Below, piece by piece: positions 39,630 to 53,911 of a stretch of DNA of 64,000 nt (its first letter is position 1; the number at the start of each line of letters is the position of its first letter). The notes beneath the pieces are model-generated. The model was not told the DNA's origin. It did no database searches and saw only the letters and a program-made list of their open reading frames with translations. Made by a program: the position numbers and the translations under genes. Origin of the DNA: Bdellovibrionia bacterium (GTDB lineage Bacteria; Bdellovibrionota; Bdellovibrionia; Bdellovibrionales; JAGQZY01); NCBI GenBank assembly GCA_030424715.1, contig JAUHWH010000001.1:806001-870000 (forward strand), given 5' to 3'.

Positions 39630-41456
39630 TTATGAACCAGTATAACAGATCATGCCAATGGGTAAATGGTCGCTCATCACAAAAGGATAGGGGTCTCGTG
39701 AGACCAAATGTCCTAATTTAAAGCCACTGGAAAGAGTGGCCGTAAAGAAATTCAGAATGGTGAAAGAGCCTGTGTCGCACTCGTTGGTTTCACTGGGTGA
39801 AAAAATAAAGTGATCATAATTCTTAGACCCTTCTCGTTTAGAGTTGATACTCGTGAGGTCCTCAACGAAAAGTTCGGAGTCTCCCAGCAAGCTCAAAGAC
39901 TCTATCCAGGCCCAATACTTCCATAGTTTTGTGTTGTCGGTTTTTTCTAAGTTAAAGTCACCCGAGACAATAACATCTGAGGTTGTTTCGTGGGCAGCCA
40001 TATCTTGGGCCGCCGCCATTGTCGCTCGAAGCTGAAAGAAGCGCGCGAACTCTCGACTTTCAAGTTGCGAGATCTTGTAGTCGGCGCCAAAAGTGTTGAT
40101 CAAAGCCGCGACAACATCAGATCCAAAAAGGCGGGAATAGTAGTCTTCGTCCGATTCTGAGGACTTTTGAGCCTCTCGCGGGTAGTGCTGGAAAACCACC
40201 CTTTTGAAAATGTCTTTCATAAAGCGGTTGTAGACTTTACGCCTGAGTGACATGAAATCATTGCGACAAGTCCTGTATCTTTGAACATCCTCGAGGTGTT
40301 CCATTATATTAATGCATGTCGGAGGGAGATAACCATTTTTTTCAATGATACTCAGGGTGGTTTTCAGGCGAATCAGGCAGCGCTCAAAGCTGAGTTGTTC
40401 CTTCTCGGGATCTTTCAGCATCTTGTCGGGTTCAATTTGGCAACGGGACCGTGGTAGTGGCAGCTTTTGTTCTGTTCCCTCGCGCAGGCGAAGAGTGCCC
40501 GGTTCCGTCAGGAGCCTTTCAATTGCTTTCTGGAATCGGCTGTTTGGTTTGCCCGTCAGTGAGTTGACAAGTTGAAGATTTTTTAGTTGGCATTCGACCA
40601 TGCACTGGCTGGCGGATTCATGAAAGCCACGAAAACTCAAGTGAAGCGAAATGTAAGAGGATTCAAAATTATTAATCTTGAAGCGGGCCACAAGCGGCAA
40701 CTTTACAAAGTAGTCGGAGGTCGTATCACTCGCCGCTAAAGGGCAAGCATAGGCCTGACCAGTGGGCGGAAGCACATAGGTCCGATCGTTAATAGGGCGG
40801 TCATTGCTCGTGCTGGTTAACCCCTTGGGGGTAAAAGCTCGGTAGATAAAGTTCTTTTTATAGGGAGGATTGCCGACGAAGTGACGGTTGCAATACTCCG
40901 ATGGAACAGGCTTGGCGATACCACCACGATAAAGAAAGCCGAGCAGTTCAGAGTCGTGGCCTTGTGAGAAAGGAGAAACGATAAGGCCCCAACTCGGGTC
41001 CCGTTGCTGTAGCTTCTCGAGCAAAAGTAGGTGCCCGGGTAAAATGTATCGCGCCCCTTGTTTGAAATTAGCAACAATATCTTCTAGGCGTCCTGGTTGC
41101 AGCTCTTGAAGAGACACAAGGTCCCACTCCGAATCGATCATCTCGGCTGTGTAGTCCCAATTCTTGCGATTGCGTTGCTGGCTGGAGCGCAAAATATTAT
41201 AGCTACCGATGCGAGCTTTCTCGGTGGGGTGAGTTTTTTCTGTTTTCTGGGAGCGTGGTTTGTAGTGGTGATACAAATCGTTGCATTCCACGCGTTTCGT
41301 CCCCAAGGCCTGCTTTGCCTTTTGGCACAGAGCGAAGGTGCTGATATCTTTTAAGGGGCTACTAGGGTCTGTGCTGTAGCGAAAGGCCTCTGCTGCGGAC
41401 GGCAGCAACAGGAGAAAATGTAGTAAAAACAAGCACTTGATAAGATTTCGCTGCAT
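39630..41456 (-). CDS. Large exported endonuclease/exonuclease/phosphatase (EEP) family protein
   Basis: A 608-residue protein. I start it at ATG 41456, which gives the signal peptide MQRNLIKCLFLLHFLLLLPSAAEA. EEP (DNase I-like) motifs are present but widely spaced: ARIGSYNILRSS and LVSLQELQPG near residues 75-115, then VIVSGDFNLEKTDN near 510, NYDHFIFSP, and MSDHLPIGM near the C-terminus. These supply the metal-binding Asn, Glu, Asp-Asn and Asp-His residues. Between the first and second half sits an insertion of several hundred residues with many Cys and Arg, unlike compact nucleases of about 250-300 residues. It is probably a secreted nuclease or phosphodiesterase; the substrate is unknown. 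Confidence 0.82.
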   Translation of the reverse strand: MQRNLIKCLFLLHFLLLLPSAAEAFRYSTDPSSPLKDISTFALCQKAKQALGTKRVECNDLYHHYKPRSQKTEKTHPTEKARIGSYNILRSSQQRNRKNWDYTAEMIDSEWDLVSLQELQPGRLEDIVANFKQGARYILPGHLLLLEKLQQRDPSWGLIVSPFSQGHDSELLGFLYRGGIAKPVPSEYCNRHFVGNPPYKKNFIYRAFTPKGLTSTSNDRPINDRTYVLPPTGQAYACPLAASDTTSDYFVKLPLVARFKINNFESSYISLHLSFRGFHESASQCMVECQLKNLQLVNSLTGKPNSRFQKAIERLLTEPGTLRLREGTEQKLPLPRSRCQIEPDKMLKDPEKEQLSFERCLIRLKTTLSIIEKNGYLPPTCINIMEHLEDVQRYRTCRNDFMSLRRKVYNRFMKDIFKRVVFQHYPREAQKSSESDEDYYSRLFGSDVVAALINTFGADYKISQLESREFARFFQLRATMAAAQDMAAHETTSDVIVSGDFNLEKTDNTKLWKYWAWIESLSLLGDSELFVEDLTSINSKREGSKNYDHFIFSPSETNECDTGSFTILNFFTATLSSGFKLGHLVSRDPYPFVMSDHLPIGMICYTGS

Positions 41457-42028
41457 TTGTGGCACTGTAACTATGTCTAGAAAAAACAAGGAAATCCGCT
41501 GCAACGTCCGGTTTTCGTTTGGAGCAGCCTCGCCCTTGTCGATTTCCAGATATAGGTCACTTTGTAAGATTTACAAGGAAAAACTCTAGGCCACTGTTTC
41601 AGATCCACCAGAAGGTGAATTTTCTGACGCTTGCGCGGCGCAATGTTTGATCGGGTAGCCAACGACCTGGTCCACCTCCTGAATACGAATTCTTGAGTGC
41701 CCAAAAAAGACACACGTAAATGGGGGGCGGGTCGGTCGTCGGGCCGATTTTTTCAAAACATGGCTGGCGAGGTTTTTTTAATGAATTCAATTTCGCTGAC
41801 TACAAAAAAGGAGCCGTCAAACTTTTTACTTATGGTCGGAGCGGCTCAGGTGACCAACCCGATGAAAAGGGCGTCTGAGGCCGCGCTTTCTGGTTCGAGG
41901 TTTAAATACTTTTATGGTCCGTGGGGTGATGAGACTTTCGACACTTTTTGAATATATTATGCAAGCGTGAGCGATGAGCCCACAGTCGTGCTTTTTTTAG
42001 TAGAATAGGACCTCTCGAACAGGACAAT
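41457..42028. other. Intergenic stretch with one doubtful small ORF
   Basis: About 570 bases between the divergent EEP and unknown exported genes. The only candidate frame on the plus strand is a 56-codon ORF at 41781-41951 (described separately). A weak GC-rich hairpin followed by six T (about 41730-41756) is visible. Both flanking promoters must lie here. Nothing else was recognised. Confidence 0.4.
41781..41951 (+). CDS. Possible small protein, unsupported by homology
   Basis: A 56-codon frame beginning with ATG after GCGAGG at workable spacing. The peptide (NSISLTTKKEPSNFLLMVGA, then basic and aromatic residues to DETFDTF) resembles no family I know. A longer version of the frame starts at 41697, but it has no ribosome site. 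I list it because of the ribosome-site spacing and the otherwise long empty gap; chance is a fair explanation. Confidence 0.25.
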   Translation: MNSISLTTKKEPSNFLLMVGAAQVTNPMKRASEAALSGSRFKYFYGPWGDETFDTF

Positions 42029-43342
42029 ATGCCAAATCCACTGAAGACACTTTTTCTATTTTTATTTACCCTTGTGTATGTCTTGGCTCTTTCGGCAGCT
42101 CCGACGGCGGGGGCTCCGCTCTGTTCGCAGGTCTTCACCGCACGCAGCTTCGAGAGTCTAAAAAGTAGTAACCAGTCTCTCGATTTTAGTGACTTAGGTT
42201 CAAGAACCTTTCTTTATGATTTGCGAGAGGCCTTCTCGCGACTCGAAGAAGGCACGGCTCAACAAAAAGATCTTTTGGTCATCTTACAGTACGGTGACCC
42301 TGTCAGCATCGCCGCCACCCTTAAATGGAGCCAGCCTAAAACCGAGAGCGTGTTGTGGGACATTGTTCGCCTTCTCGAAAGCCCCAACATACAGCCCCAA
42401 GTTCTTGCAGGCGACATAGTGACCCAGCACTTCTTTCGAGAAAATCTGACGCCTTGGTTTGATCTTGTGCCGCAGAGTCTGTTGTCTCGCCTGGTGGTGG
42501 CTAGCCTTGGCGGACGCATCGCGGAGGCCTCCTCACTCAATGCCAGCGCGATTCTAGGTCGCTTGCCTGAGTTGCAGAAAGTTCTCGGAGTTGAGTCGCC
42601 AGTGATCCTTGAGCTCGCTCTTAGGGCTGTTCAAAAGCCTCGCTCGTTGTCTCTGGCGCCAGAGATCCACAGGTTTCCAGAACAGGTTCAGCAGCAATTC
42701 ACTGAGAACTGGCGGGTGAACAGTGAGCAGCCAGAGCTGGTGTTACCAGGGGTGAGTTTATTGAGTCACGCAGCCAAAAGCCAACTCGTGCAGCAAAAAG
42801 ATTGGGTCGATTGTGGCACTTGCCCCTATATGGCCCGAGGCCATTTCGAGCCGTTTTTTAAAAACAACGCGGGTCAGGGAACAACCCTGGTTCTTCAGCA
42901 GGGTGAGCTTCTCGGTTTGTTAAAGACTACGGGCGATCCGTCCTTTCTGGCTCTTCGAGACATTAAAAATGAGCGTGGGGACCGTGTTCTGTTAACCGGT
43001 GGCGTGTACGTGCCACCTCTTTGGATGCTCAATAAAATACAGGTGTCAGTGCATCCAATGGCACCGCATCCGCTACAAACCTTAGATCTCTCTTCGTTTA
43101 AAATAGATACGATGGGTAAAGATCCTTTGGCCTTCTACCCCATGGTCTTTAGCAAGGCGCCTCTCGAGTTGAACCAAATTCTTGGGGGAATGTTTGCCGA
43201 CATGCCATCAACTGAGGGATCGATTAGAGAAAGCTATGGCTTCTCGATGGGGCCAGTAGAGAACGTCAAAGGTCAAGAATTCAAGAATGGAATTTTGGAG
43301 CTTCGAGATAGGGCCCAGGCTGTCTTGGATAAGGGGTTGTGA
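42029..43342 (+). CDS. Exported protein of unknown function
   Basis: A 437-residue protein. ATG 42029 follows AGGA five bases upstream. The signal peptide (KTLFLFLFTLVYVLALSAAP) is clear, with cleavage near AGA-PL. The N-terminal 200 residues are helical, with repeats of short amphipathic helices (LVILQYGDPVSIAATL, VLWDIVRLLES). The C-terminal half is mixed, with a CGTCPYM pair of cysteines near residue 268, which could be a redox or metal motif but lacks a thioredoxin context. I recognise no family. It is likely periplasmic, monocistronic and convergent toward the cytochrome gene. Confidence 0.65.
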   Translation: MPNPLKTLFLFLFTLVYVLALSAAPTAGAPLCSQVFTARSFESLKSSNQSLDFSDLGSRTFLYDLREAFSRLEEGTAQQKDLLVILQYGDPVSIAATLKWSQPKTESVLWDIVRLLESPNIQPQVLAGDIVTQHFFRENLTPWFDLVPQSLLSRLVVASLGGRIAEASSLNASAILGRLPELQKVLGVESPVILELALRAVQKPRSLSLAPEIHRFPEQVQQQFTENWRVNSEQPELVLPGVSLLSHAAKSQLVQQKDWVDCGTCPYMARGHFEPFFKNNAGQGTTLVLQQGELLGLLKTTGDPSFLALRDIKNERGDRVLLTGGVYVPPLWMLNKIQVSVHPMAPHPLQTLDLSSFKIDTMGKDPLAFYPMVFSKAPLELNQILGGMFADMPSTEGSIRESYGFSMGPVENVKGQEFKNGILELRDRAQAVLDKGL

Positions 43343-43504
43343 TCGGTAAGAGCCTTGCCTTTGACCGAAGTCACTAAGACCAAAGCTCCGAGGAAAATAC
43401 CTTTTTCTAAGAACTCTATTCTTCGAGAATATAGTAGCCGAGGCGAGGGCTCGGTCTGTGTTTTCCAAACGTGGTGGGTGCTCTATAGAGTTCCAAAGAC
43501 TTTC

Positions 43505-44053
43505 TCAGTATTTATTTAAGCACAGCCCCATGCCCTTTCTTTTTAAAAGAGCGACAAGGGGAAGAGCGAGTAATAGTAGGTGGGGGCTCGAAGGGCCACT
43601 GTTAGATGTTGGCCCTATCATGCCGCACCCACCACCGCCGCTCGAACCAGGTGAGTTGCTAATGTCATTAGCCGGATCGTCGTTGCTGGCAAATTCAGAG
43701 GCATTACTTCGACCATCTCGATCAGAGTCCCTCGCGGCAAAGTCGGGGTCCGAAAAAATAGTTTCAAGGCTATTGAAGCCAGTGGGGGGCAGGTCGTTGC
43801 CCCCAGAAGTTCCAATGATATCCAAGGCCGTGTTTTTAAAATCTTGGCCAAAACTGCCGTTGATATTTCCGGGGCCACCGGCAGAAGAAACGTGGCACAA
43901 TGTGCACTGCCCATTTTTGCCACCCACTCCGGCGGTAACACCATGAATGGCCTCGAGAGCCAGCTGCACCCGCCGCTCTTCGATGTAAGAGCTTGAAGCT
44001 CGCAGAGTTCCAGTGGAGCCGATGATAAAAAGGCAGCACAAAAGTTGATTCAT
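43505..44053 (-). CDS. Exported monoheme cytochrome-like protein with C-terminal sorting-type anchor
   Basis: A 182-residue protein. After a signal peptide (MNQLLCCLFIIGSTGTLRAS) there is one heme c site, Cys50-Thr-Leu-Cys53-His54. A Gly/Asn-rich stretch follows, then an EF-hand-like loop DSDRDGRSNASEF (residues 110-121). The C-terminus is tripartite: a Gly-rich spacer ending GGGGC (Cys143) then GMIGP, a hydrophobic helix of Leu/Ala/Val (about residues 158-169), and basic KRKG. This resembles the Myxo-CTERM/GlyGly-CTERM style of protein-sorting signals. The heme suggests an electron carrier held at the envelope; the processing enzyme is unknown. Confidence 0.75.
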   Translation of the reverse strand: MNQLLCCLFIIGSTGTLRASSSYIEERRVQLALEAIHGVTAGVGGKNGQCTLCHVSSAGGPGNINGSFGQDFKNTALDIIGTSGGNDLPPTGFNSLETIFSDPDFAARDSDRDGRSNASEFASNDDPANDISNSPGSSGGGGCGMIGPTSNSGPSSPHLLLLALPLVALLKRKGMGLCLNKY

Positions 44054-44140: not shown

Positions 44141-44671
44141 TTAAAACGAAGAGTTGGGCTGTTTGAGGAACTCTATTTCTTCTGGAGTGGACGTCCGTTG
44201 TAAAATCTCGTTGCGGTGGGGGTATCGCCCAAATTTTAAAATAATATCGCGGTGCTTTTTTTCATATTCGATGGACATGCCAGGCTGACTAAAAAGCCGA
44301 AAAGCCTCTTCATGAACCAAGGCAGACTCGCTGTGCATATAGGGCATGTAGAGAAAAAATCTTTTGTCAGCGAGTTCCGCGTCAGCACCGCGGGCGACCG
44401 CCTCTTGAGCCAGGGCGAGTGCTAACGGGTCTTGGGCAAAAGCTTGGGGCTGATCACGATACATATTGCGAGAGAATTGATCGAGGACAATGATTTCAGC
44501 CAACCGCCCTTCGGCGGTCTCGCGCCACGAGAACAACTCACAGTTTTTAGCCCGCTCGTGAATAGCGCTGAACTTATCTCGCACTAAGTTATCGAATGAT
44601 TTGTCTTTGGTCCACCATTGTGAGGTTTCGATGTCTTCGAACCAGAATTTGATAACATCACTGGCTTGCAT
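44141..44671 (-). CDS. DUF924 family protein
   Basis: A 176-residue soluble helical protein of the DUF924 family. Typical segments are DVIKFWFEDIETSQWWTKD at the N-terminus, IIVLDQFSRNMYRDQPQAF in the middle, and FFLYMPYMHSES with a run of helices after it. The fold is tetratricopeptide-like and the role of the family is unknown. Its start lies 14 bp inside the GT9 gene in another frame, so it is coupled to glycan-synthesis genes. That link may be accidental, because DUF924 is scattered through many contexts. Confidence 0.88.
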   Translation of the reverse strand: MQASDVIKFWFEDIETSQWWTKDKSFDNLVRDKFSAIHERAKNCELFSWRETAEGRLAEIIVLDQFSRNMYRDQPQAFAQDPLALALAQEAVARGADAELADKRFFLYMPYMHSESALVHEEAFRLFSQPGMSIEYEKKHRDIILKFGRYPHRNEILQRTSTPEEIEFLKQPNSSF

Positions 44672-45653
44672 TTCTCTCTCCCAATTTTTCTAGTGATTGC
44701 ACAACAGACTCAACGGCGATCGACACCATACACGCGTGGTCGCCACGATGGCAAATGTTGCCTCCATGGACGTGGCAGGGGCGACACTCGAGGGTGTTGT
44801 TTTCAAGGACCCGCACATTGTTAAATTCTGGGTAAAATCCAAACTCTTTAGTTGTGGGACCAAAGAGGGCTAGGGTGGGGGCGTTCACGGCAACACCCAT
44901 ATGCATGGGCCCAGAATCTGTCGATACAAAGGCTTTGGCTTGGGCGATAATGGCGGCCATCTCTCGTATTGTGGTTTTGTTTGTGAGGTCCACGAGGAGT
45001 GGACTGTCGGGCAGACCTATTTTTGTTGAGCTCGCTCCGACGACAACGACCGGAATTCTGCGGGCATTGAGTGTTTCGCACAACGCTTTGAAATGGGGCC
45101 ACTCTTTGTTGCCCTGACTGGCGTAAGGGTGAATGGCTACGGCGTTTTTAAAATCAAACTCGTTTTTTGCAAAGGTTAGCGATTGTGCCGGAAAGATCGG
45201 GCGAAGTGCCTCTACAGGAAGCGGCTTGCAGTCAAAAGCCTCTTGCAAAAGTGAATAGTATTTCTCAACCACATGTTGCTTGAGGTCTGACGCATAACTT
45301 CTGTCTCTCACAAAGGCTCGACGCTTACGAGACTGCTTATTGATGACATAGGATTGGCATCCTTGAAAAAGTCTTGCAATAGCGGATTTAAAGTTGCCCT
45401 GCCAATCAATAATGACGTCAAACTCCGGAAGTTGTCGAAGAATCTTCAACAGCGCAAAGAAATGCGAACCCTTTGGTACCACATGGGTTTGCACCACATC
45501 GGTGCTGTTGATGAAAAGTTCTTGGCCGATTTCTGAGGTCAGCATGTGCACTTCGAGATCCGGGCGTTGCTGCCGCAATTGCGCTAGGGGCCCCGTTGTA
45601 AGTAAAAGGTCGCCAAGAGCGCTAAATCGAATGACCAGAACTTTTTGACTCAT
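44658..45653 (-). CDS. Glycosyltransferase family 9 (heptosyltransferase-like)
   Basis: A 331-residue GT-B enzyme of the ADP-heptose:LPS heptosyltransferase family. The N-terminal strand and loop are KVLVIRFSALGDLLLTTGPL. In the C-terminal half are the conserved VAIHPYASQGNKEWPHF and STDSGPMHMGVAVNAPTLAL (nucleotide-sugar binding), followed by FGPTTKEFG. A C-x2-C pair with further cysteines near the end (CRPCHVHGGNICHRGDHAC) is also typical of the family. Acting on the LPS inner core is likely. It starts 5 bp after the GT2 gene and overlaps DUF924 by 14 bp. Confidence 0.93.
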   Translation of the reverse strand: MSQKVLVIRFSALGDLLLTTGPLAQLRQQRPDLEVHMLTSEIGQELFINSTDVVQTHVVPKGSHFFALLKILRQLPEFDVIIDWQGNFKSAIARLFQGCQSYVINKQSRKRRAFVRDRSYASDLKQHVVEKYYSLLQEAFDCKPLPVEALRPIFPAQSLTFAKNEFDFKNAVAIHPYASQGNKEWPHFKALCETLNARRIPVVVVGASSTKIGLPDSPLLVDLTNKTTIREMAAIIAQAKAFVSTDSGPMHMGVAVNAPTLALFGPTTKEFGFYPEFNNVRVLENNTLECRPCHVHGGNICHRGDHACMVSIAVESVVQSLEKLGERNASQ

Positions 45654-45658
45654 CGGCG

Positions 45659-46393
45659 TCAGTCTCTAAAGGATCGTAGTTTTATTTTACATAAGTCAAA
45701 AAGAGCCACCACAAAGGCTTTGGCTTTCACCTTCGATCCGCCCACATCGGTCCAAGACAACAAAGGTTCTTCAAAAAAGTCGGCCACTTTTAAGTTTCCA
45801 GTTTTGATCAGTCTTTGGATCAGCTCAACATCAAACAGCCAGCTGGAATCAAAAGGTTTTTCCACACATTTTTTGAGACCGGGAAAATTATTGATTAATT
45901 TCATCCCACACTGGGTGTCGTAAACTTTGAGGCGCAACATCTGTGATGCCACCAGAGCAAAGCAACGTCCGAGCCAATAGCGCCAGCGCTTGCGATCGAT
46001 ATGTCGACCGAGCAAGAACACGCGCGACCCTAACAGCACCTGACAGTCTTGTAGAGTAAAAATTTTGAGTAGGCGAAAGACCTCGCTCATGGGTGTCGCC
46101 AAATCGGCGTCAAAATAGCCGGTGAGGGTTGCCTGTTTGTCGATAGCTTCGATGAGTCCCTGTCGGACGGCTTCTCCTTTGCCGGAGTTTTTTTCCAGTT
46201 GGTGTAGAAAAAAACGGTCGGGGTGGGCTTGAATCATGGTCTGAATGATTTCGGCTGTTCTGTCTTTCGAACCGTCGTCAACAAACAGCCAGTGGAGATT
46301 GGCGTTCTCTTGCAAGCTATCAATGAAAACTTGGGGATGAAGGCGTTCCTCCTCATTAAAACAGGGGACCACCAGAACAATTTTTTCTGCCAT
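45659..46393 (-). CDS. Glycosyltransferase family 2 (dolichyl-phosphate glucosyltransferase-like)
   Basis: A 244-residue GT-A enzyme. The N-terminus VLVVPCFNEEERLH, the DDGSKDRTAEII loop and the DxD-like motif in GYFDADLATPMSE match ALG5/GtrB-type enzymes, which transfer a sugar from UDP-Glc to a polyprenyl phosphate. No extra membrane helices are obvious, unlike GtrB, which has two. As the first gene of the minus-strand trio GT2-GT9-DUF924, it may make the lipid-linked sugar donor that the multi-pass protein beside it could use. That pairing is inference. Confidence 0.9.
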   Translation of the reverse strand: MAEKIVLVVPCFNEEERLHPQVFIDSLQENANLHWLFVDDGSKDRTAEIIQTMIQAHPDRFFLHQLEKNSGKGEAVRQGLIEAIDKQATLTGYFDADLATPMSEVFRLLKIFTLQDCQVLLGSRVFLLGRHIDRKRWRYWLGRCFALVASQMLRLKVYDTQCGMKLINNFPGLKKCVEKPFDSSWLFDVELIQRLIKTGNLKVADFFEEPLLSWTDVGGSKVKAKAFVVALFDLCKIKLRSFRD

Positions 46394-46495: not shown

Positions 46496-47824
46496 ATGCC
46501 TCTGAAGCCCTCGCCCAATCTCAATAGATTGTTGATTTTACTTGGTTTTTTGATGACCGCCGTCTACGGGTACTCCCATTTTATCGATGGCGATGTGATT
46601 CAAATTTTAGATAAAGCACACCTGATGGTGACCGAGGGAACCGTGACCCCCTTTGGTAACGTTTCAAGCAGCGGAGCTAGCGGAAACATCCCTGGCGCAT
46701 TTCTAACCCTGGCCTCTGGCGGCCCAATGAGTGTTTGGCCCTCGCCTTGGGCAGCCTTGGTTTTTTTGGCCCTATTGCACTTTTTGGGCCTGTTGATGTT
46801 TCAGAATGTTTTGAAGAACTTCGTCGGTTCGTTCGCTATGTTGGCCTTGATTGTGTTTTATTGGCTCAATCCGTGGCGCTTGAGTGAGGTGTTTCTCTGG
46901 AACCCGGGTTATATCTACTTTGCGACAATGCTGCATATGTGGTCGGCGTATCATTTATCAAAACGCCCCTCTTTTCAGTTTAGTGTGATTCATGGTCTGA
47001 GTCTTTTTTTAGGTCTGCAAATTCACCCATCCTTTATCATTCTGTTTTTTATCACAATGATGCTTTTGTGGATGAAGGCGCTGAAGCCCCATATTCTTGG
47101 GACGCTGTCAGGGATTGTTTTGGGTTTACTGACTTTGACCCCCTATTTTTTAGCGGGCCTTGAGGATCCCAGTATTTTCCCGCAGCCGGGGAGCGGTGAT
47201 GGTAAGGGGCATTTGTTTTTCGGGCTACTCTATGTCTACCCACTGTTGAAGGGATTTTGGTATTGGATATTATTTGGCTCGAATATCTTTCAAACCCATG
47301 TGTTTCATCAGTTGGATTTCAGTTGGATGCAGTTGCCCACATTGGAAGTCGTCTTTAAGGTCTTTTGGACTGTTGTCAAATATGGTGTTGGTTTATTCGG
47401 AGTGGGTGTTTCGTTTTACGTAAACTTTAAATTTTACAAGGCCAACCGTAAGAAATTCAATGTGCTCAAGTTCAAGATGAAAGACTCAGGGCAATGGTTG
47501 AGTCTTTACACGATCTCGGCTTTTGTTGCGGCCCTGATCGCCACGGCAATTTCTACGACACTGCCGATCTATTGGCACTTACTTTATGTGTGGCCGATGA
47601 CATTGATTCCGCTTCTTTTGAAGTTCGATGAATTTTCGGCGTCAGAAAAATGGAAAGTCCGAACATCTCGTTACCTATTGGTTATCATCGTGTATTTTTG
47701 TGCCACGAACTTATTGGCTGGGATAGGGTCGAAAAAGCATGATATCCGCAAGCCCTTTCACGATCTCTATTTAGAGGCTTGCTTAGAAACTTGTGCGGTC
47801 GAAAACCTATCGAGAGCGCAATAA
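46496..47824 (+). CDS. Multi-pass membrane protein, GT-C glycosyltransferase-like
   Basis: A 442-residue integral membrane protein with roughly ten hydrophobic helices. After the first helix, a periplasmic loop carries acidic residues (SHFIDGDVIQILDKAHLM), the position of the catalytic Asp in PMT/ArnT-type GT-C enzymes, which use polyprenyl-phosphate sugars. A second loop has WNPGYIYFATMLHMW. The family is not recognised outright; a flippase-like protein is an alternative. It diverges from the GT2 gene by a 102-bp gap and is followed 16 bp later by the TEK-motif genes, so the four plus/minus genes look like one glycan locus. The ATG lacks a good Shine-Dalgarno. Confidence 0.7.
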   Translation: MPLKPSPNLNRLLILLGFLMTAVYGYSHFIDGDVIQILDKAHLMVTEGTVTPFGNVSSSGASGNIPGAFLTLASGGPMSVWPSPWAALVFLALLHFLGLLMFQNVLKNFVGSFAMLALIVFYWLNPWRLSEVFLWNPGYIYFATMLHMWSAYHLSKRPSFQFSVIHGLSLFLGLQIHPSFIILFFITMMLLWMKALKPHILGTLSGIVLGLLTLTPYFLAGLEDPSIFPQPGSGDGKGHLFFGLLYVYPLLKGFWYWILFGSNIFQTHVFHQLDFSWMQLPTLEVVFKVFWTVVKYGVGLFGVGVSFYVNFKFYKANRKKFNVLKFKMKDSGQWLSLYTISAFVAALIATAISTTLPIYWHLLYVWPMTLIPLLLKFDEFSASEKWKVRTSRYLLVIIVYFCATNLLAGIGSKKHDIRKPFHDLYLEACLETCAVENLSRAQ

Positions 47825-47840: not shown

Positions 47841-49202
47841 GTGAGTGAGCACTCTCTGGTCGATGTTTGTCTTTATTATGATCACTTTCAGGGTGGTGCC
47901 CCCCAGCCCAACGGTGGCCATGGCGCCAAGTTGGCACATCTTCAAAAAATGAGCTTTTTCGGAAAGAAGGTGAAAACTCATCCTGATGCTGTGTGGTCAC
48001 ATACACAGATCCAAGATGACCTGGCTGATCTTGACATCACCTTCCGTGAGACTCGGTTGAGCCAGCCCATTCAAGCCGGCACCTCTCGGCACCACTGGTA
48101 TGTGATCGAACCTTTTTTTATCACCCAGTGCTTTCGCGAAAATCAGAGTGTTCTCAAGGCCTTGTCTAGGCGGGCTTTGCAAATGCTTCGCTCAGGGCAG
48201 CTCTCTTTGGTTATTTGGTACCCGAAAGAGGCTCACGACCTTGAAATGGACGATTGGTTTGCCCTCTTAAATCAGGGTGTCAAAGATCTCGGTATAAAAA
48301 ATTGCATACTTTATTTTTCAGATATGAACGTGCAAGAAAACGCGCTGAGATGGAGCGCAAGACACTCAACACCTCTTCACCTCACACCTCGCGCTCTGGA
48401 CTACTGGTTTGATTCTCATCGTAGCTTGATGAATGCGTATTTGAGAGATGATGAGTTGGGGACCTTTTTGCGTCCTGAGCCGGTTTTACGAGAGAAACCA
48501 CGACCCAAACATTATCTGTGCTTGAACGCCGTCGCCAAAGCGCACCGAGTGTTTCTAGTCAATGATCTGGGGCAAAAGGGCTTGCTTCCTCAAAGTCATC
48601 ACAGTCTTCTTTTTCGCTACGGCCATACTGTTGATCGGCGTGATCTCGAGTCAGAGGTTGATAAGTACCTACAGCTCGATGACAGGGAGCGTGCCACCAA
48701 GATCAGAGAAATCGAAAGCTTTCTCGATCAAAATCACCCCGGTCAGCCCATTGTTTTAGACCGAGCCTTGAAGGATTACGGAGAAAACGATCGTGTGCAC
48801 CAACCCTGGATTTACCAAGAGACTTATTGTTCCGTAGTGACCGAGAGTGTGGTTGACGATGATATTTTCTTTTTGACTGAAAAGACTTATAAATGTTTTC
48901 ACTTTCTTCATCCTTTTTTACTTTTCGGAAGTGTTGGGGCCTTGACCCATCTCAGAAAAATGGGATTTGAGACTTTCCCCGATTGGTTTGATGAGAGCTA
49001 CGACAGTGAGCCGGATCTGCGCAAACGTTACCAACTCGTTCTGCAAAACATCCAATCTCTGTGTCAGAAAGATTTGAAAGACCTCCATAAGTTATACCAA
49101 AACAGTTGGGAGAAACTGGAGCACAACTGGCAACACTTCTTTTTGGCTAAACGAAAGCACGACTTTAAGGAGAGGGTTCTTGGAACTGAATATAATCTAT
49201 GA
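47841..49202 (+). CDS. TEK-motif protein 1, putative glycosyltransferase of an unassigned family
   Basis: A 453-residue soluble protein. GTG 47841 follows GGAG eight bases upstream; longer starts would overlap the previous gene. The first 200 residues are aromatic and mixed. Near 224 comes YLCLNAVAKAHRVFLV, near 343-363 FFLTEKTYKCFHFLHPFLLF, then GALTHLRKMGFETFPDW and FDESYDSE near 383. The downstream gene has the same motifs in the same order and spacing. TEK.(Y/F)K...HPF(L)..G resembles the nucleotide-sugar motif of GT10 fucosyltransferases ((Y/F)xTEK...NAL.AG..PVV.G), which is why I suggest a GT-B enzyme. This is inference. No signal peptide is present. Confidence 0.7.
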   Translation: MSEHSLVDVCLYYDHFQGGAPQPNGGHGAKLAHLQKMSFFGKKVKTHPDAVWSHTQIQDDLADLDITFRETRLSQPIQAGTSRHHWYVIEPFFITQCFRENQSVLKALSRRALQMLRSGQLSLVIWYPKEAHDLEMDDWFALLNQGVKDLGIKNCILYFSDMNVQENALRWSARHSTPLHLTPRALDYWFDSHRSLMNAYLRDDELGTFLRPEPVLREKPRPKHYLCLNAVAKAHRVFLVNDLGQKGLLPQSHHSLLFRYGHTVDRRDLESEVDKYLQLDDRERATKIREIESFLDQNHPGQPIVLDRALKDYGENDRVHQPWIYQETYCSVVTESVVDDDIFFLTEKTYKCFHFLHPFLLFGSVGALTHLRKMGFETFPDWFDESYDSEPDLRKRYQLVLQNIQSLCQKDLKDLHKLYQNSWEKLEHNWQHFFLAKRKHDFKERVLGTEYNL

Positions 49203-50652
49203 TTTTTTCGATGGCGACAAGCCTCTTCCTAATGGGCTTTGTCCAAAGTATCACGAAGGGTTTTGGGCAGATGACCATAACGCCTACAATGTTTTAACTC
49301 GCTTTATCCCAATGCAAGATACCCGGATGGGTTTTTTTCAGCTACTGCTGGAGAGAAGCGGACGACAATTTAGGATACTGTCCCCTGATAATCTGCCATT
49401 GCAGGGGCTTAATATTTTTCCTGTAGAGCTGAACTATTCTGATCGTTCGCTGGTTCTTGAGAATTGTTTTGCGCAGATTTCAGAATCTTCGCTTGCAGCC
49501 ATTCGACAAAGCAAGATGAAGCTATTGGTTTATTACGGTTTTGAAGCCTTCTCAATCGATCAGGCCCATTGGATACATTTGGTAGAGAGAAGCCTGGGGG
49601 TGCTGGGAATTCCCCCGGAGCACACGATTTTTGTTTTTGGCTGCGAGAACCTATTGCAAAATGTAAGAAGCTATTATGAAAACCAAACTCCGTACTGGAA
49701 TTGGAAGTGCCTGAACTGGCTTCATTTCTCCCATTTTGAGTTTGAGTTCAGCCACTATCTAAACTTTGTGAAAGAGCGCCCGGCTTTGGCGAAAAAAGAG
49801 TTGGTTGCTCATGTTGAATCTGAAAAGACGCCGACTAAAAAGTTTTTGTGCCTTAACGGGGGTGGACGAGAGCATCGGGTGTTTTTCTTAAAAGAGCTTT
49901 TCAGAAGAAAACTAAATACCCATGGGCATATTAGCTACCTGAAAAAGTTTTTGGGTGGTGACCAGACAAGAGAGTTTGTGGACTCTTTTGATCCCGAGCA
50001 ATCAAAGATTCTACGCTTTCACGAAAGCTTCACCTTAGACCCTCTCTATCTCGACACACCAAAGGCTTTTGATGAGTGGCACAATAGGGGCATGAGCGCT
50101 TGGACTTATGAGGACAGCTGGTTCACTGTTGTCACAGAAACTCTTTATCAGCCGGACAGTGTCTTTCTTACCGAAAAAAGCTTTAAACCGATTGCAAACC
50201 TTCATCCTTTTTTGCTTGTTGGCTTTACTGGGGCCTTAGAGACCTTGAGAGACTTGGGTTATAAAACCTTCTCTCCATGGTTCGATGAGAGTTATGACCA
50301 TGAGAAGTCTCACGCCCTTCGATTTCGAAAAGTGCTTAAAGAAGTAGAAAGATTGTGTAATCTCTCCGACGATGCGTGGGGGCAGATGCTCGACGAAATG
50401 ACTCCAACCCTGGAGCACAACAGAAACCTTTTGTTTTCCAAACAATTCGGTGAGCAAATCAACACTCTTTTTAATCAGATAGAGAGCATCAGTAGAGAGC
50501 CCAATCGGTCTTTGCAGGATCTCGAAAGGTTTTTAAAGGTGCGAGAGGGCTCGAAAAACGCTTTAGCAAAGACGTCTTATGATGGTCCTGGGGGGCTGTG
50601 GTCTGTAGCTAAGCGCAGGTTAGGCTCTTTTACAGAGGGGCTTTGGAACTGA
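49180..50652 (+). CDS. TEK-motif protein 2, paralogue of the preceding gene
   Basis: A 490-residue paralogue of the gene before it, in another frame and overlapping it by 23 bp. The start is TTG 49180 after AAGGAGAGG; the spacing is acceptable. Shared blocks are FLCLNGGGREHRVFFLKEL (near 222), SWFTVVTETL, VFLTEKSFKPIANLHPFLL (near 328), GALETLRDLGYKTFSPW and FDESYDHE (near 368). Outside these blocks the two differ strongly, which argues for an old duplication and different acceptors or donors. The last 70 residues are an extension absent from the first copy (LQDLERFLKVREGSKN). The 3' end overlaps the convergent UDP-sugar dehydrogenase gene by 76 bp. Confidence 0.7.
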   Translation: MELNIIYDFFDGDKPLPNGLCPKYHEGFWADDHNAYNVLTRFIPMQDTRMGFFQLLLERSGRQFRILSPDNLPLQGLNIFPVELNYSDRSLVLENCFAQISESSLAAIRQSKMKLLVYYGFEAFSIDQAHWIHLVERSLGVLGIPPEHTIFVFGCENLLQNVRSYYENQTPYWNWKCLNWLHFSHFEFEFSHYLNFVKERPALAKKELVAHVESEKTPTKKFLCLNGGGREHRVFFLKELFRRKLNTHGHISYLKKFLGGDQTREFVDSFDPEQSKILRFHESFTLDPLYLDTPKAFDEWHNRGMSAWTYEDSWFTVVTETLYQPDSVFLTEKSFKPIANLHPFLLVGFTGALETLRDLGYKTFSPWFDESYDHEKSHALRFRKVLKEVERLCNLSDDAWGQMLDEMTPTLEHNRNLLFSKQFGEQINTLFNQIESISREPNRSLQDLERFLKVREGSKNALAKTSYDGPGGLWSVAKRRLGSFTEGLWN

Positions 50653-51833
50653 CGGGTGTTCCCATAATGAACGACCTTGCAATGGATATCTTTAGGGTTG
50701 CTCCAGCGTCTCCAAGGATCAATCACTATACTGTTGTCATCAATAGGAATGTTTTGCGTCCAGGTATCCCAGTACCCGATGAGGTACACTCTCGATTTTG
50801 GAAAGTCTGTTGGTATTTTGTCATTGGTGTTTTCGTCGTAATAACAAACCTCGGCACCCAACTCTTTTAAATAGTGTCCAACCAAGAGGCTATAACTGCC
50901 GTCGGTGAGACTCACTTGAGGTTTGTAGGCCTTGCCGACAATGCAGATGTGTTTGCCGTGTTGAATCACTGATTTTGCCATATTTTGGGCTTGGATTTCG
51001 CGAGAGTGCATGATGGAGCCAAAAAGATCATAACCGAGGTCGAGCTTTTCAGATAAAAAACGTAAAGCAATATTATCACGAGGGTGACAAGGACCTCCGT
51101 CACCCATGCCCGCTTTCATGTAGGCCGCCGAGGTGATCCTGTAGGTACTGTCAGCAAGGGCCTTGCTGACAACGTCCACGTCCATGTTCCCTGATTTTTC
51201 AGCCACATCTTGGATCATATTGACCAAAGAAATCTTTGCAGAAATAAAAGTGTTATAGAAAATCTTAATGGCTTCACCTTCATCCCACGTGCCCACCACG
51301 TATCGTGGATCGTTGTTCATCATCGGTCGATAAAAGTCGATGAGCATCTGAGCTTCTTGGGACTGCTCGCCTTTTTCGGTTCCGATGATAACCATCTCAG
51401 GGTTAACAAAGTCTGACTTCACAGTGCCCATGGCAATTAAGTAAGGGTTGTAAATAAATTGTAGGTTACTGCATTTAGGAAGAAACTGTTCTCGAATGGT
51501 TCCGGGCAAAACTGTTGAGATTAGTACGAGAGGGACTTTTTTGGTAACCAGTGCGTTCACTTGCTCCAAAACTTCGATAACTGCAGTGTAATCAAAATCT
51601 TGGTTGGGCAAATGATTAATCGGTTTTTCACCACCGTAATCCGGTGAGTGAGGTGTGGGAACCGCAACAAAAATCATGTCTGCTTTTTTCGTCAATTCAC
51701 CGAGGTCAGAGACCACCTGAAACTTCGAGGTGGATCTTCGTTCCACATCATAACCAATCACTTGGTAGTGTTCTGCCATCACTTCGGCCACTGGGAGCCC
51801 CAACTTTCCTAAACCAACAAAACCTATAGTCAT
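50577..51833 (-). CDS. UDP-glucose/GDP-mannose dehydrogenase family protein
   Basis: A 418-residue NAD-dependent nucleotide-sugar dehydrogenase. I start it at ATG 51833 (MTIGFVGLGKLGLP) because this places the Rossmann glycines at the usual position; the longer frame adds a senseless serine-rich peptide. VLISTVLPGT and IVGKAYKPQVSLTDGS are conserved. The catalytic Cys249 is intact in DGGPCHPRDNIAL. The usual NPEFLREG segment reads NPYLIAMGTVKSDF instead, so the substrate pocket differs from textbook Ugd. Its product would feed uronic-type sugar donors to the neighbouring glycosyltransferases. The last 25 codons overlap the paralogue gene on the other strand. Confidence 0.88.
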   Translation of the reverse strand: MTIGFVGLGKLGLPVAEVMAEHYQVIGYDVERRSTSKFQVVSDLGELTKKADMIFVAVPTPHSPDYGGEKPINHLPNQDFDYTAVIEVLEQVNALVTKKVPLVLISTVLPGTIREQFLPKCSNLQFIYNPYLIAMGTVKSDFVNPEMVIIGTEKGEQSQEAQMLIDFYRPMMNNDPRYVVGTWDEGEAIKIFYNTFISAKISLVNMIQDVAEKSGNMDVDVVSKALADSTYRITSAAYMKAGMGDGGPCHPRDNIALRFLSEKLDLGYDLFGSIMHSREIQAQNMAKSVIQHGKHICIVGKAYKPQVSLTDGSYSLLVGHYLKELGAEVCYYDENTNDKIPTDFPKSRVYLIGYWDTWTQNIPIDDNSIVIDPWRRWSNPKDIHCKVVHYGNTRQFQSPSVKEPNLRLATDHSPPGPS

Positions 51834-51940
51834 AGAGTGGAAGCTAGATGAGGTCGGGGAAACTGACAATCTCGAACATCGCGTCAAAGGGGCCTCTGTT
51901 GCACATTCCAGGGCCCTGGGAGACCAATAAATGAGGGGGG

Positions 51941-53911
51941 CTAGGCTCGATTACTGAGTAGCCTTTCGACCACGGAGGAGTCCGCCAAGGTCGTGATATC
52001 GCCCAGTTGGTCTTCCTCATGGTTGGCTATCTTTCGTAAGATTCGGCGCATGATTTTACCACTGCGGGTTTTCGGGAGCTCCGGAGCCCAATGCACAAAT
52101 TCGCAAGAGCAAAATGCTCCGATTTCATCACGCACATGATTGTTCAGCACCTTTTTGAGGTCATCGTTGTACTCAAAGCCATTGTTGAGAGTGACGTAAG
52201 CGTAAATCCCTTGTCCTTTAATTTCATGGGGAACGCCAACCACCGCAGCCTCTGCCACAGCCTCGTGTCCAACCAGAGAACTTTCAACTTCGGCGGTACC
52301 AATACGATGTCCCGATACATTGATAACATCATCGACCCGGCCGGTAACCCAAAGGTAGCCGTCAGCATCTCGTTTACATCCGTCGCCGGTGAAGTAGTAA
52401 CCCTTGTACTGGTCAAAGTAGGTTTTTTCGAAACGATCATGGTCTCCGTAAACGGTTCGCATTTGACCCGGCCAAGGATATTTAAAAGCCAACACACCCG
52501 CCGTTTCACCATCGATTTCGTGCCCCTGTTGTGGATCGAGCACCACAGGTTGCCCGCCAAAAAACGGAAAAGTCGCCGAACCCGGTTTCATTGGGGTCGC
52601 TCCTGGCAGTGGAGTGAGTAAAATGCCACCGGTCTCAGTCTGCCACCAGGTGTCTACGATGGGGCAGCGTTTGTCGCCGACCACTTCATAGTACCAGCGC
52701 CAGGCTTCAGGATTGATCGGTTCGCCCACGGAACCTAACAGCCGCAACGAGCTTCGATCGTATTTTTCCACAAAGGAATTTCCTTTGGCCGCAATGGCGC
52801 GGATGGCAGTGGGGGCCGTATAAAACAAGCTGACTTTATGGCGATCAACCACATCCCAAAAGCGACCCGCATCGGGATAGGTGGGTATGCCTTCAAAAAT
52901 CACTTGAGTGGCGCAGTTCGCCAGCGGGCCGTAGGTAATGTAAGAATGACCAGTGATCCACCCGACATCAGCCGTGCACCAGTAGATATCTTCTGGGCGA
53001 TAATCAAAAACGTACTTAAAGGTGGTGGCGGCGTAGACCATATAACCGCCGGTGGTATGAAGAACGCCCTTGGGTTTGCCGGTAGAGCCGGATGTGTACA
53101 GTATAAAAAGTGGGTCTTCGGCATTCATCCACTCGGGTGGACAATCAGTCGAGGCCTGGGCCATAAGATCGTGCCATTTGAAATCGCGACCGTCTTTCAT
53201 ATGCAGATCTTGCGGGTAGTTGGCGCCGAGACGGTCGACACTAATACAGGTTGTGACCGAAAAACCTTTGGCAGCACAAATCTCCATGGCCTTGTCACTG
53301 ATATCTTTTGTAGGGATAAGTTTCTTACCACGAAAACATCCGTCGGCCGTGATCAAGACGGCACACTTCGAATCTAAAATACGATCAGCCAACGAGTCGG
53401 CAGAAAATCCACCAAACACCACCGAATGTACGGCTCCAATCCTAGCGCAAGCCAGGGTGGCGATAACCAGTTCATTGATCATTGGCATGTAAAGAGCCAC
53501 GCGATCACCCTTCTTCACACCCCTAGACTTCAGCACGTTAGCAAATTGACAGACTTGCTCATGCAGTTCTTTGTAAGTCATCTTGTAGGTGTCATTGGGC
53601 TCGTTGCCTTCGAAGATCAGAGCCACGCGGTCGGAGTGTTTATCGAGATGCCGATCCAAGCAGTTGTAAGTGATATTGGTCTTTCCGTCTTTGAACCATT
53701 CGATTTTAATGGGACCTTTATTGCGGTCGTAGTTGTAATCGAGAACTTGGGTGAAGTCTTTCTCCCAATAAAAGTTCTCTCGAGCTATTTTTGACCAGAA
53801 CTCTTGCGGGTTTTCTACAGAGGCTTTGTATATTTTTTTGTATTCATCCAATGAGCTCACGTGTGCTTTTTTTGAAAACTCAATGCCCGGGTCAATTGTT
53901 GCTGTGTCCAT
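51941..53911 (-). CDS. acs: Acetyl-CoA synthetase
   Basis: A 656-residue AMP-forming acetate:CoA ligase. Core motifs are [20 protein letters not shown] (P-loop), TWWQTETGG (acetate/AMP site), [20 protein letters not shown] and the C-terminal [12 protein letters not shown], whose Lys is the acetylation switch. The length is normal. It turns acetate into acetyl-CoA and so allows growth on acetate or recycling of overflow acetate. A sodium:solute symporter gene lies 66 bp upstream in the same direction, the arrangement seen for acs-actP, although here the symporter comes first. Confidence 0.97.

Follow-up and report, generated by a model that had tools for sequence, protein, structure and literature searches.

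A tandem pair of GT10-like proteins from a predicted GT-B family, found mainly in viruses, in a sugar-gene island of a Bdellovibrionota genome

What might two overlapping, mutually similar genes of no assigned family do in a bacterial locus surrounded by genes for sugar transfer and sugar-nucleotide oxidation? The first-pass annotation of the 64,000-nucleotide stretch analyzed here (the window) had read such a pair as related sugar transferases with GT10-like motifs, belonging to a group of which little is described. Our analysis supports this reading through a predicted fold, a profile-profile comparison (hhalign) and the conservation of the TEK and DESYD motifs, and places both proteins in a family that is carried mainly by viruses.

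A homologous gene pair in an island that the sister species lacks

Gene A (47841..49202, plus strand) encodes 453 residues from a GTG start and has an RBS-like GGAG about 9 nt 5' of the GTG at 47841, while gene B (49180..50652, plus strand) encodes 490 residues from a TTG start at 49180 that is preceded by a strong, RBS-like AAGGAG. The ORF list confirmed both reading frames, their lengths and the 23-bp overlap (49180-49202) that had been described. All four of the shared blocks named earlier, YLCLN/FLCLN...HRVF, TEK(T/S)(Y/F)K...HPFLL, GAL..LR..G(F/Y)..TF..W and FDESYD, were found in the order claimed, and the likeness reaches beyond them: BLASTP aligned 343 residues of A and B at 31% identity (E=3e-37), and the family profile matched both proteins (A, E=2.0e-85; B, E=6.4e-100). 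Judged by their sequences, A and B are true homologues, with a likeness far beyond chance.

Directly upstream of A lies a gene for a membrane protein (46496..47824, plus strand), preceded by a GT2 glycosyltransferase gene (45659..46393, minus strand; PF00535, E=1.7e-15) and a GT9 heptosyltransferase-like gene (44658..45653, minus strand; PF01075, E=2e-32). On the other side, a gene for a phage-type UDP-glucose/GDP-mannose dehydrogenase (UGDH; 50577..51887, minus strand; PF03721/PF00984), whose likely real start is MTIGFVG at 51833, lies tail to tail with B, overlapping its end. The GT2, GT9 and UDP-sugar dehydrogenase neighbors that had been proposed were borne out by Pfam; the membrane protein had no Pfam match, and its GT-C-like label was assigned by eye solely from its hydrophobic sequence. 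The UGDH shares 49-57% identity with UGDHs of marine phages; in 143 other genomes of the phylum, the only UGDH as close was that of G128 (51%), and the rest reached at most 33%.

The sister species G001 retains the GT9 gene (43% identity) and, as the other flank, a gene named from its sequence as AMP-forming acetyl-CoA synthetase-like (51941..53911, minus strand; 79% identity), with only a ParB-like ORF between them. The GC content is 44-46% over the intervening region of the window vs approximately 49% around it. The A-B-UGDH region forms an island that the sister species lacks. Three ORFs lying upstream of GT9, 39630-41504, 42029-43342 and 43458-43946, had no Pfam match, and the first and last of these have partial homologues in the sister species.

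Predicted fold and relationship to GT10

Single-sequence searches of Pfam, NCBIfam, PHROG and PDB sequences with A and B gave no credible match, returning only chance matches to ferritin/rubrerythrin, and a profile search of PDB sequences gave nothing other than sphingomyelinase-like chance matches in the N-domain. Neither protein matched the Pfam model of GT10 (PF00852). A search of Pfam with 119 diverse family members gave isolated matches, the best of which was to PF00852 in one member (E=3.7e-4); this was also the sole glycosyltransferase match, leaving 118 of the 119 without one. The same 119 members gave one weak match in PHROGs.

An AlphaFold2 model of B, built from an alignment of 128 relatives (pLDDT 80.9, pTM 0.84, most of the C-domain above 90), has the strand-helix order of two Rossmann domains, and the fold of the family is accordingly predicted to be GT-B-like. 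In a Foldseek search of the PDB with this model, mango FUT13, which belongs to GT10, was the top match (E=3.6e-3, probability 0.97-0.99), and further matches were to the GT-B proteins SenB, LmbT, glycogen synthase, H. pylori FucT and AtFUT11. When a model of a viral family member (pTM 0.79) was searched in the same way, FUT13 again came out on top (E=0.018), and H. pylori FucT took ranks 9-13. GT10 was therefore nearest for both models, as the motif reading had anticipated, through matches that were weak: no PDB match of either model reached E<0.001, and whole-chain TM-scores were low, mostly 0.25-0.37, which we count against the preferred explanation. Among predicted viral proteins (BFVD), the B model matched uncharacterized proteins of uncultured Caudovirales with E down to 9.6e-21 and TM-scores of 0.62/0.76, and a giant-virus fucosyltransferase lay just outside this set (E=1.2e-3). 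The Caudovirales proteins (A0A6J5LB74, A0A6J5TC09, A0A6J5TB28 and others) belong by fold to the same family as A and B, from which they differ in being viral, in having no assigned function and in a shorter N-terminal region; one match of 788 aa is named UGDH and is presumably a UGDH fusion.

Comparison of the family profile with a profile of 36 GT10 proteins by hhalign gave a probability of 79.8% (E=1.5e-5) and paired FTVVTET...TEK of the family with FSICYEN...TEK of GT10. Reversed GT10 scored 0.1%, and UGDH, two radical-SAM groups, amidinotransferase-like proteins and epimerases scored at most 0.4% each, so that GT10 was picked over five control families. A 17% match initially seen with the epimerase control was caused by a truncated fusion carrying the family domain and fell to 0.3% upon its removal. 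Column shuffling produced very high scores in 2 of 60 shuffles, the third highest being 16.1; the one of these two that was inspected was a 14-column artefact at the profile end. At E<0.01, the family HMM found 32 true GT10 ORFs and none of 247 non-GT10 ORFs of the same set. The GT2 and GT4 control sets held too few sequences to count as profiles, and other GT-B families were therefore compared by structure only.

Residue conservation was assessed in alignments of 128-232 homologues, with percentages calculated over 232. In B numbering, Arg233, Glu332, Lys333 and Asn414 are invariant or nearly so, Glu320, Gly360, Asp373 and Arg381 are conserved at 97%, 99%, 98% and 99%, respectively, and position 122 is Glu in 92% and Asp in 6%; A has every one of the 17 conserved B positions checked. 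The TEK motif and GF.TF...DESYD proved near-invariant, and in the B model the conserved residues gather in loops of the C-domain. TEK is encoded at 50170..50178 in B (Thr331-Glu332-Lys333, where helix 332-339 begins, following strand 315-319) and at 48876..48884 in A (Thr346-Glu347-Lys348), with Glu and Lys invariant in the 232 homologues. The family signature DESYD lies by family alignment at 50284..50298 in B (Asp369-Asp373) and at 48990..49004 in A (Asp384-Asp388). Invariant Arg233 of B (49876..49878), where helix 231-242 begins, following strand 222-226, aligns with Arg236 of A (48546..48548), and Glu122 of B (49543..49545), directly after predicted strand 114-119, aligns with Glu130 of A (48228..48230); all of these codons are on the plus strand.

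The GT10 alpha-1,3/4-fucosyltransferases (PF00852; H. pylori FucT, 2NZW/2NZX/2NZY; mango FUT13, 7YRO) have the GT-B fold predicted for the A/B family, are its best match by both fold and profile, and appear to share with it an order of elements, the first two judged from predicted secondary structure: a Glu (catalytic in GT10) following an N-domain strand, an Arg that begins the helix behind the first strand of the C-domain, an F.(V/I)..E(T/N) strand, TEK opening a helix, and P...G. The position of Glu320 of B also agrees with GT10. By its place in the secondary structure, Arg233 of B would correspond to the donor-binding Arg of GT10 (Arg195 in H. pylori FucT). By the hhalign alignment, Glu332-Lys333 of B falls on Glu249-Lys250 of the H. 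pylori enzyme, and Glu122, by its place directly after a predicted N-domain strand, would correspond to Glu95. Of these H. pylori residues, Glu95 probably serves as the catalytic base and Glu249 could stabilize the intermediate (PMC4202792), and GDP-fucose is contacted by Tyr246, Glu249 and Lys250 (PMC11468063).

In contrast to GT10, A and B have Phe in place of Tyr246, three residues before Glu249 (F 55%, Y 13% and H 12% in the family column), and HPFLLxG replaces the (I/V)P(I/V)YWG that follows TEK in GT10 and is absent from the family, which adds an invariant block of its own, GF.TF....DESYD...R...HN. With no PF00852 match, Phe for Tyr246 and no IPIYWG, the sequences of A and B place them formally outside GT10. 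A true GT10 gene is present in the same genome (G000:C3:7249-7485; L249:832-1848) and scores 48 bits against the PF00852 cut-off of 23.9.

Distribution and viral gene neighborhoods

Homologues of the family were found in 5 of 369 genomes of the phylum. At least 4 stretches were confirmed among 84,980 cellular species genomes, whereas two scans of IMG/VR confirmed at least 535 and at least 586 relatives, and a third, using a pattern for a second subgroup, gave 432 stretches, of which 289 were confirmed. Viral and cellular counts are both lower bounds, and the contrast is not an effect of the patterns, because those used in the searches were almost identical. In 50,697 annotated phage records, tblastn with five proteins and one consensus as queries found no family member; this search works, since a UGDH query returned 36 records. 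The family is overwhelmingly viral, occurring mostly in uncultured viruses of bacteria.

In a 236-member tree, A and B grouped with the viral proteins L032, L006, L056 and L008 (support 0.95-0.97). B pairs with viral L006 (0.87), and A and B both lie within this viral group; they are therefore old paralogues, and a recent local duplication as their origin was rejected on the basis of the tree. Support for the nearest partner of A was only 0.24. A third, shorter homologue lies 0.2 Mb away in the same genome (G000:C15, approximately 640510-641500; L361:6514-7497) and belongs to an EIFDYSFD subgroup. Six radical-SAM genes, two of them with a weak SPASM match, form the array in which it lies, and it clusters in the tree with the copies of G128 and G317, all of them in radical-SAM clusters. 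At the G128 locus (L369; G128:C34:181000-200000), among several radical-SAM-like genes, the family gene overlaps or runs directly into a phage-type UGDH gene, and GT2-like and membrane-like genes follow (labels taken from sequence), giving the gene set of the window plus radical-SAM genes; the membrane-looking protein of this cluster has 444 aa and may be compared with that encoded upstream of A.

Tandem copies are common in the viral loci, which span approximately 9 kb each: 120 of 239 carry at least two, 51 carry at least three, and L040 has five in a row. In one viral ORF, two family modules stand in tandem (L051:198-2285), and in L024 (2747-4972), L031, L035 and L064 an NAD-epimerase domain is fused to the family domain. 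The 148 non-redundant viral neighbors included 19 radical SAM proteins, 10 epimerases, 9 UGDHs, 5 SPASM proteins, 4 DegT aminotransferases and 2 carbamoyltransferases. Counted per locus (n=239), homologues of SPASM radical-SAM proteins occurred in 91, epimerases in 89, amidinotransferase-like proteins in 69 and UGDH in 63, vs 0, 26, 0 and 1, respectively, in 80 viral GT10 loci, which are shorter. The gene order in L024, for example, is amidinotransferase-like, epimerase fusion, UGDH, family, family.

Two further arrangements were observed in bacterial genomes. In G029, the family domain follows a methyltransferase-like N-terminus (L005:16-1935; E=5.9e-4), and SPMAYK replaces the usual TEK. In G033, an amidinotransferase-like gene, so named from sequence, near the host family gene (L371:1300-2406) encodes a protein with 58% identity to a neighbor of the viral family gene in L116.

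The UGDHs closest to that of the window (49-57%) are from Synechococcus phage Bellamy, Marine virus AG-345-E15 and Pelagibacter phage HTVC008M, in whose sugar islands UGDH occurs with epimerases, carbamoyltransferases and other glycosyltransferases; unlike in the window, no A/B family member lies near UGDH in these three phages. For phage sugar islands already known, a role in modifying the O-chain of the host has been proposed (PMC7029224).

Proposed function and competing readings

Altogether, we consider it probable (about 0.8) that A and B are enzymatically active as GT-B glycosyltransferases and represent an undescribed family, one that is distantly akin to GT10 and owes its spread mainly to bacteriophages. 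Most likely they depend on NDP-sugars and act on a surface glycan as part of a phage-borne glycan cassette with the phage-type UGDH. The NDP-activated sugar would bind between the two Rossmann domains, held in the C-domain by the Glu-Lys of TEK (Glu332-Lys333 in B, Glu347-Lys348 in A) and the invariant Arg, which would contact the donor phosphate. The N-domain Glu (Glu122 in B, Glu130 in A) would act as the base for the acceptor hydroxyl, metal-free as in GT10, in a presumably inverting reaction. A and B probably add successive or alternative sugars to one glycan of the envelope; the donor, a uronic acid or something similar, may come from the UGDH of the island, and supply or export of the acceptor may fall to the linked GT2 and membrane protein. 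Against this explanation stand, besides the weak structural matches, the missing PF00852 match of A and B, Phe for Tyr246 and the absent IPIYWG; in addition, the UGDH gene is on the strand opposite to A and B and need not be co-transcribed with them, and the commonest neighbors of the viral members are radical SAM proteins, whose part in a glycan pathway is putative.

The GT-B fold is also used by proteins that are not transferases, and an NDP-sugar epimerase or hydrolase (such as UDP-GlcNAc 2-epimerase or PseG), a C-N coupling enzyme (VldE) or a sugar-binding protein would suit the sugar-modifying clusters with radical SAM enzymes in which the family occurs. VldE, PseG and UDP-GlcNAc 2-epimerase do appear in the Foldseek lists. 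However, they ranked below GT10 in both searches, the profile match was to GT10 and covered its donor-site segment, TEK and the Glu at the GT10 position are conserved, and fusion to an epimerase suggests a step later than epimerization; we regard a non-transferase function as unlikely. Still less probable is that A and B are a canonical pair of GT10 alpha-1,3/4-fucosyltransferases using GDP-fucose, merely divergent in sequence. The best fold and profile matches and the conserved TEK, Arg and Glu would be expected of such enzymes, but the failure of A, B and 118 of 119 relatives to match PF00852, the replaced Tyr246, the missing IPIYWG and the GF.TF...DESYD...R...N signature foreign to GT10 argue otherwise, as do the separate GT10 gene above the Pfam cut-off in this genome and a pathway neighbor that is UGDH rather than a GDP-fucose synthase; neighbors of the family generally are UGDH and radical SAM genes and not genes of GDP-fucose synthesis.

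The clustering of A and B with viral proteins, the phage-type UGDH, the lower GC content and the absence of the island from the sister species would also fit a prophage or recent phage remnant, whose genes serve the phage, in the virion or in modifying the host surface during infection, and not the bacterium. Yet no phage structural or replication gene was recognized by Pfam among the adjoining window genes tested, the insert lies between the conserved GT9 and acetyl-CoA synthetase-like genes with only sugar genes recognized inside, and comparable cassettes are found elsewhere in the phylum, at different sites of other genomes, making this the least probable of the alternatives and a very improbable one.

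Returning to the phage-spread glycosyltransferase reading, we tentatively extend it to a broader proposal, for which we would give somewhat less than even odds: that the family, large, borne for the most part by uncultured phages and arrayed in tandem, builds an undescribed glycan together with UGDH, NAD-epimerases, amidinotransferases and several radical-SAM enzymes, and that cassettes of this kind passed from phages to Bdellovibrionota on two or more occasions, once as the A-B-UGDH island and once as the radical-SAM array with the third copy.

Viral metagenomes contain hundreds of family members, but no description of the family exists in any general library that was searched. Recognizing it as GT10-related GT-B would assign a function open to testing to a large part of viral dark matter, and it directs attention to a phage-borne sugar pathway with an abundance of radical-SAM enzymes. 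The bacterial copies, whose genomes are amenable to work without a phage, offer a practical route to the function of these enzymes.
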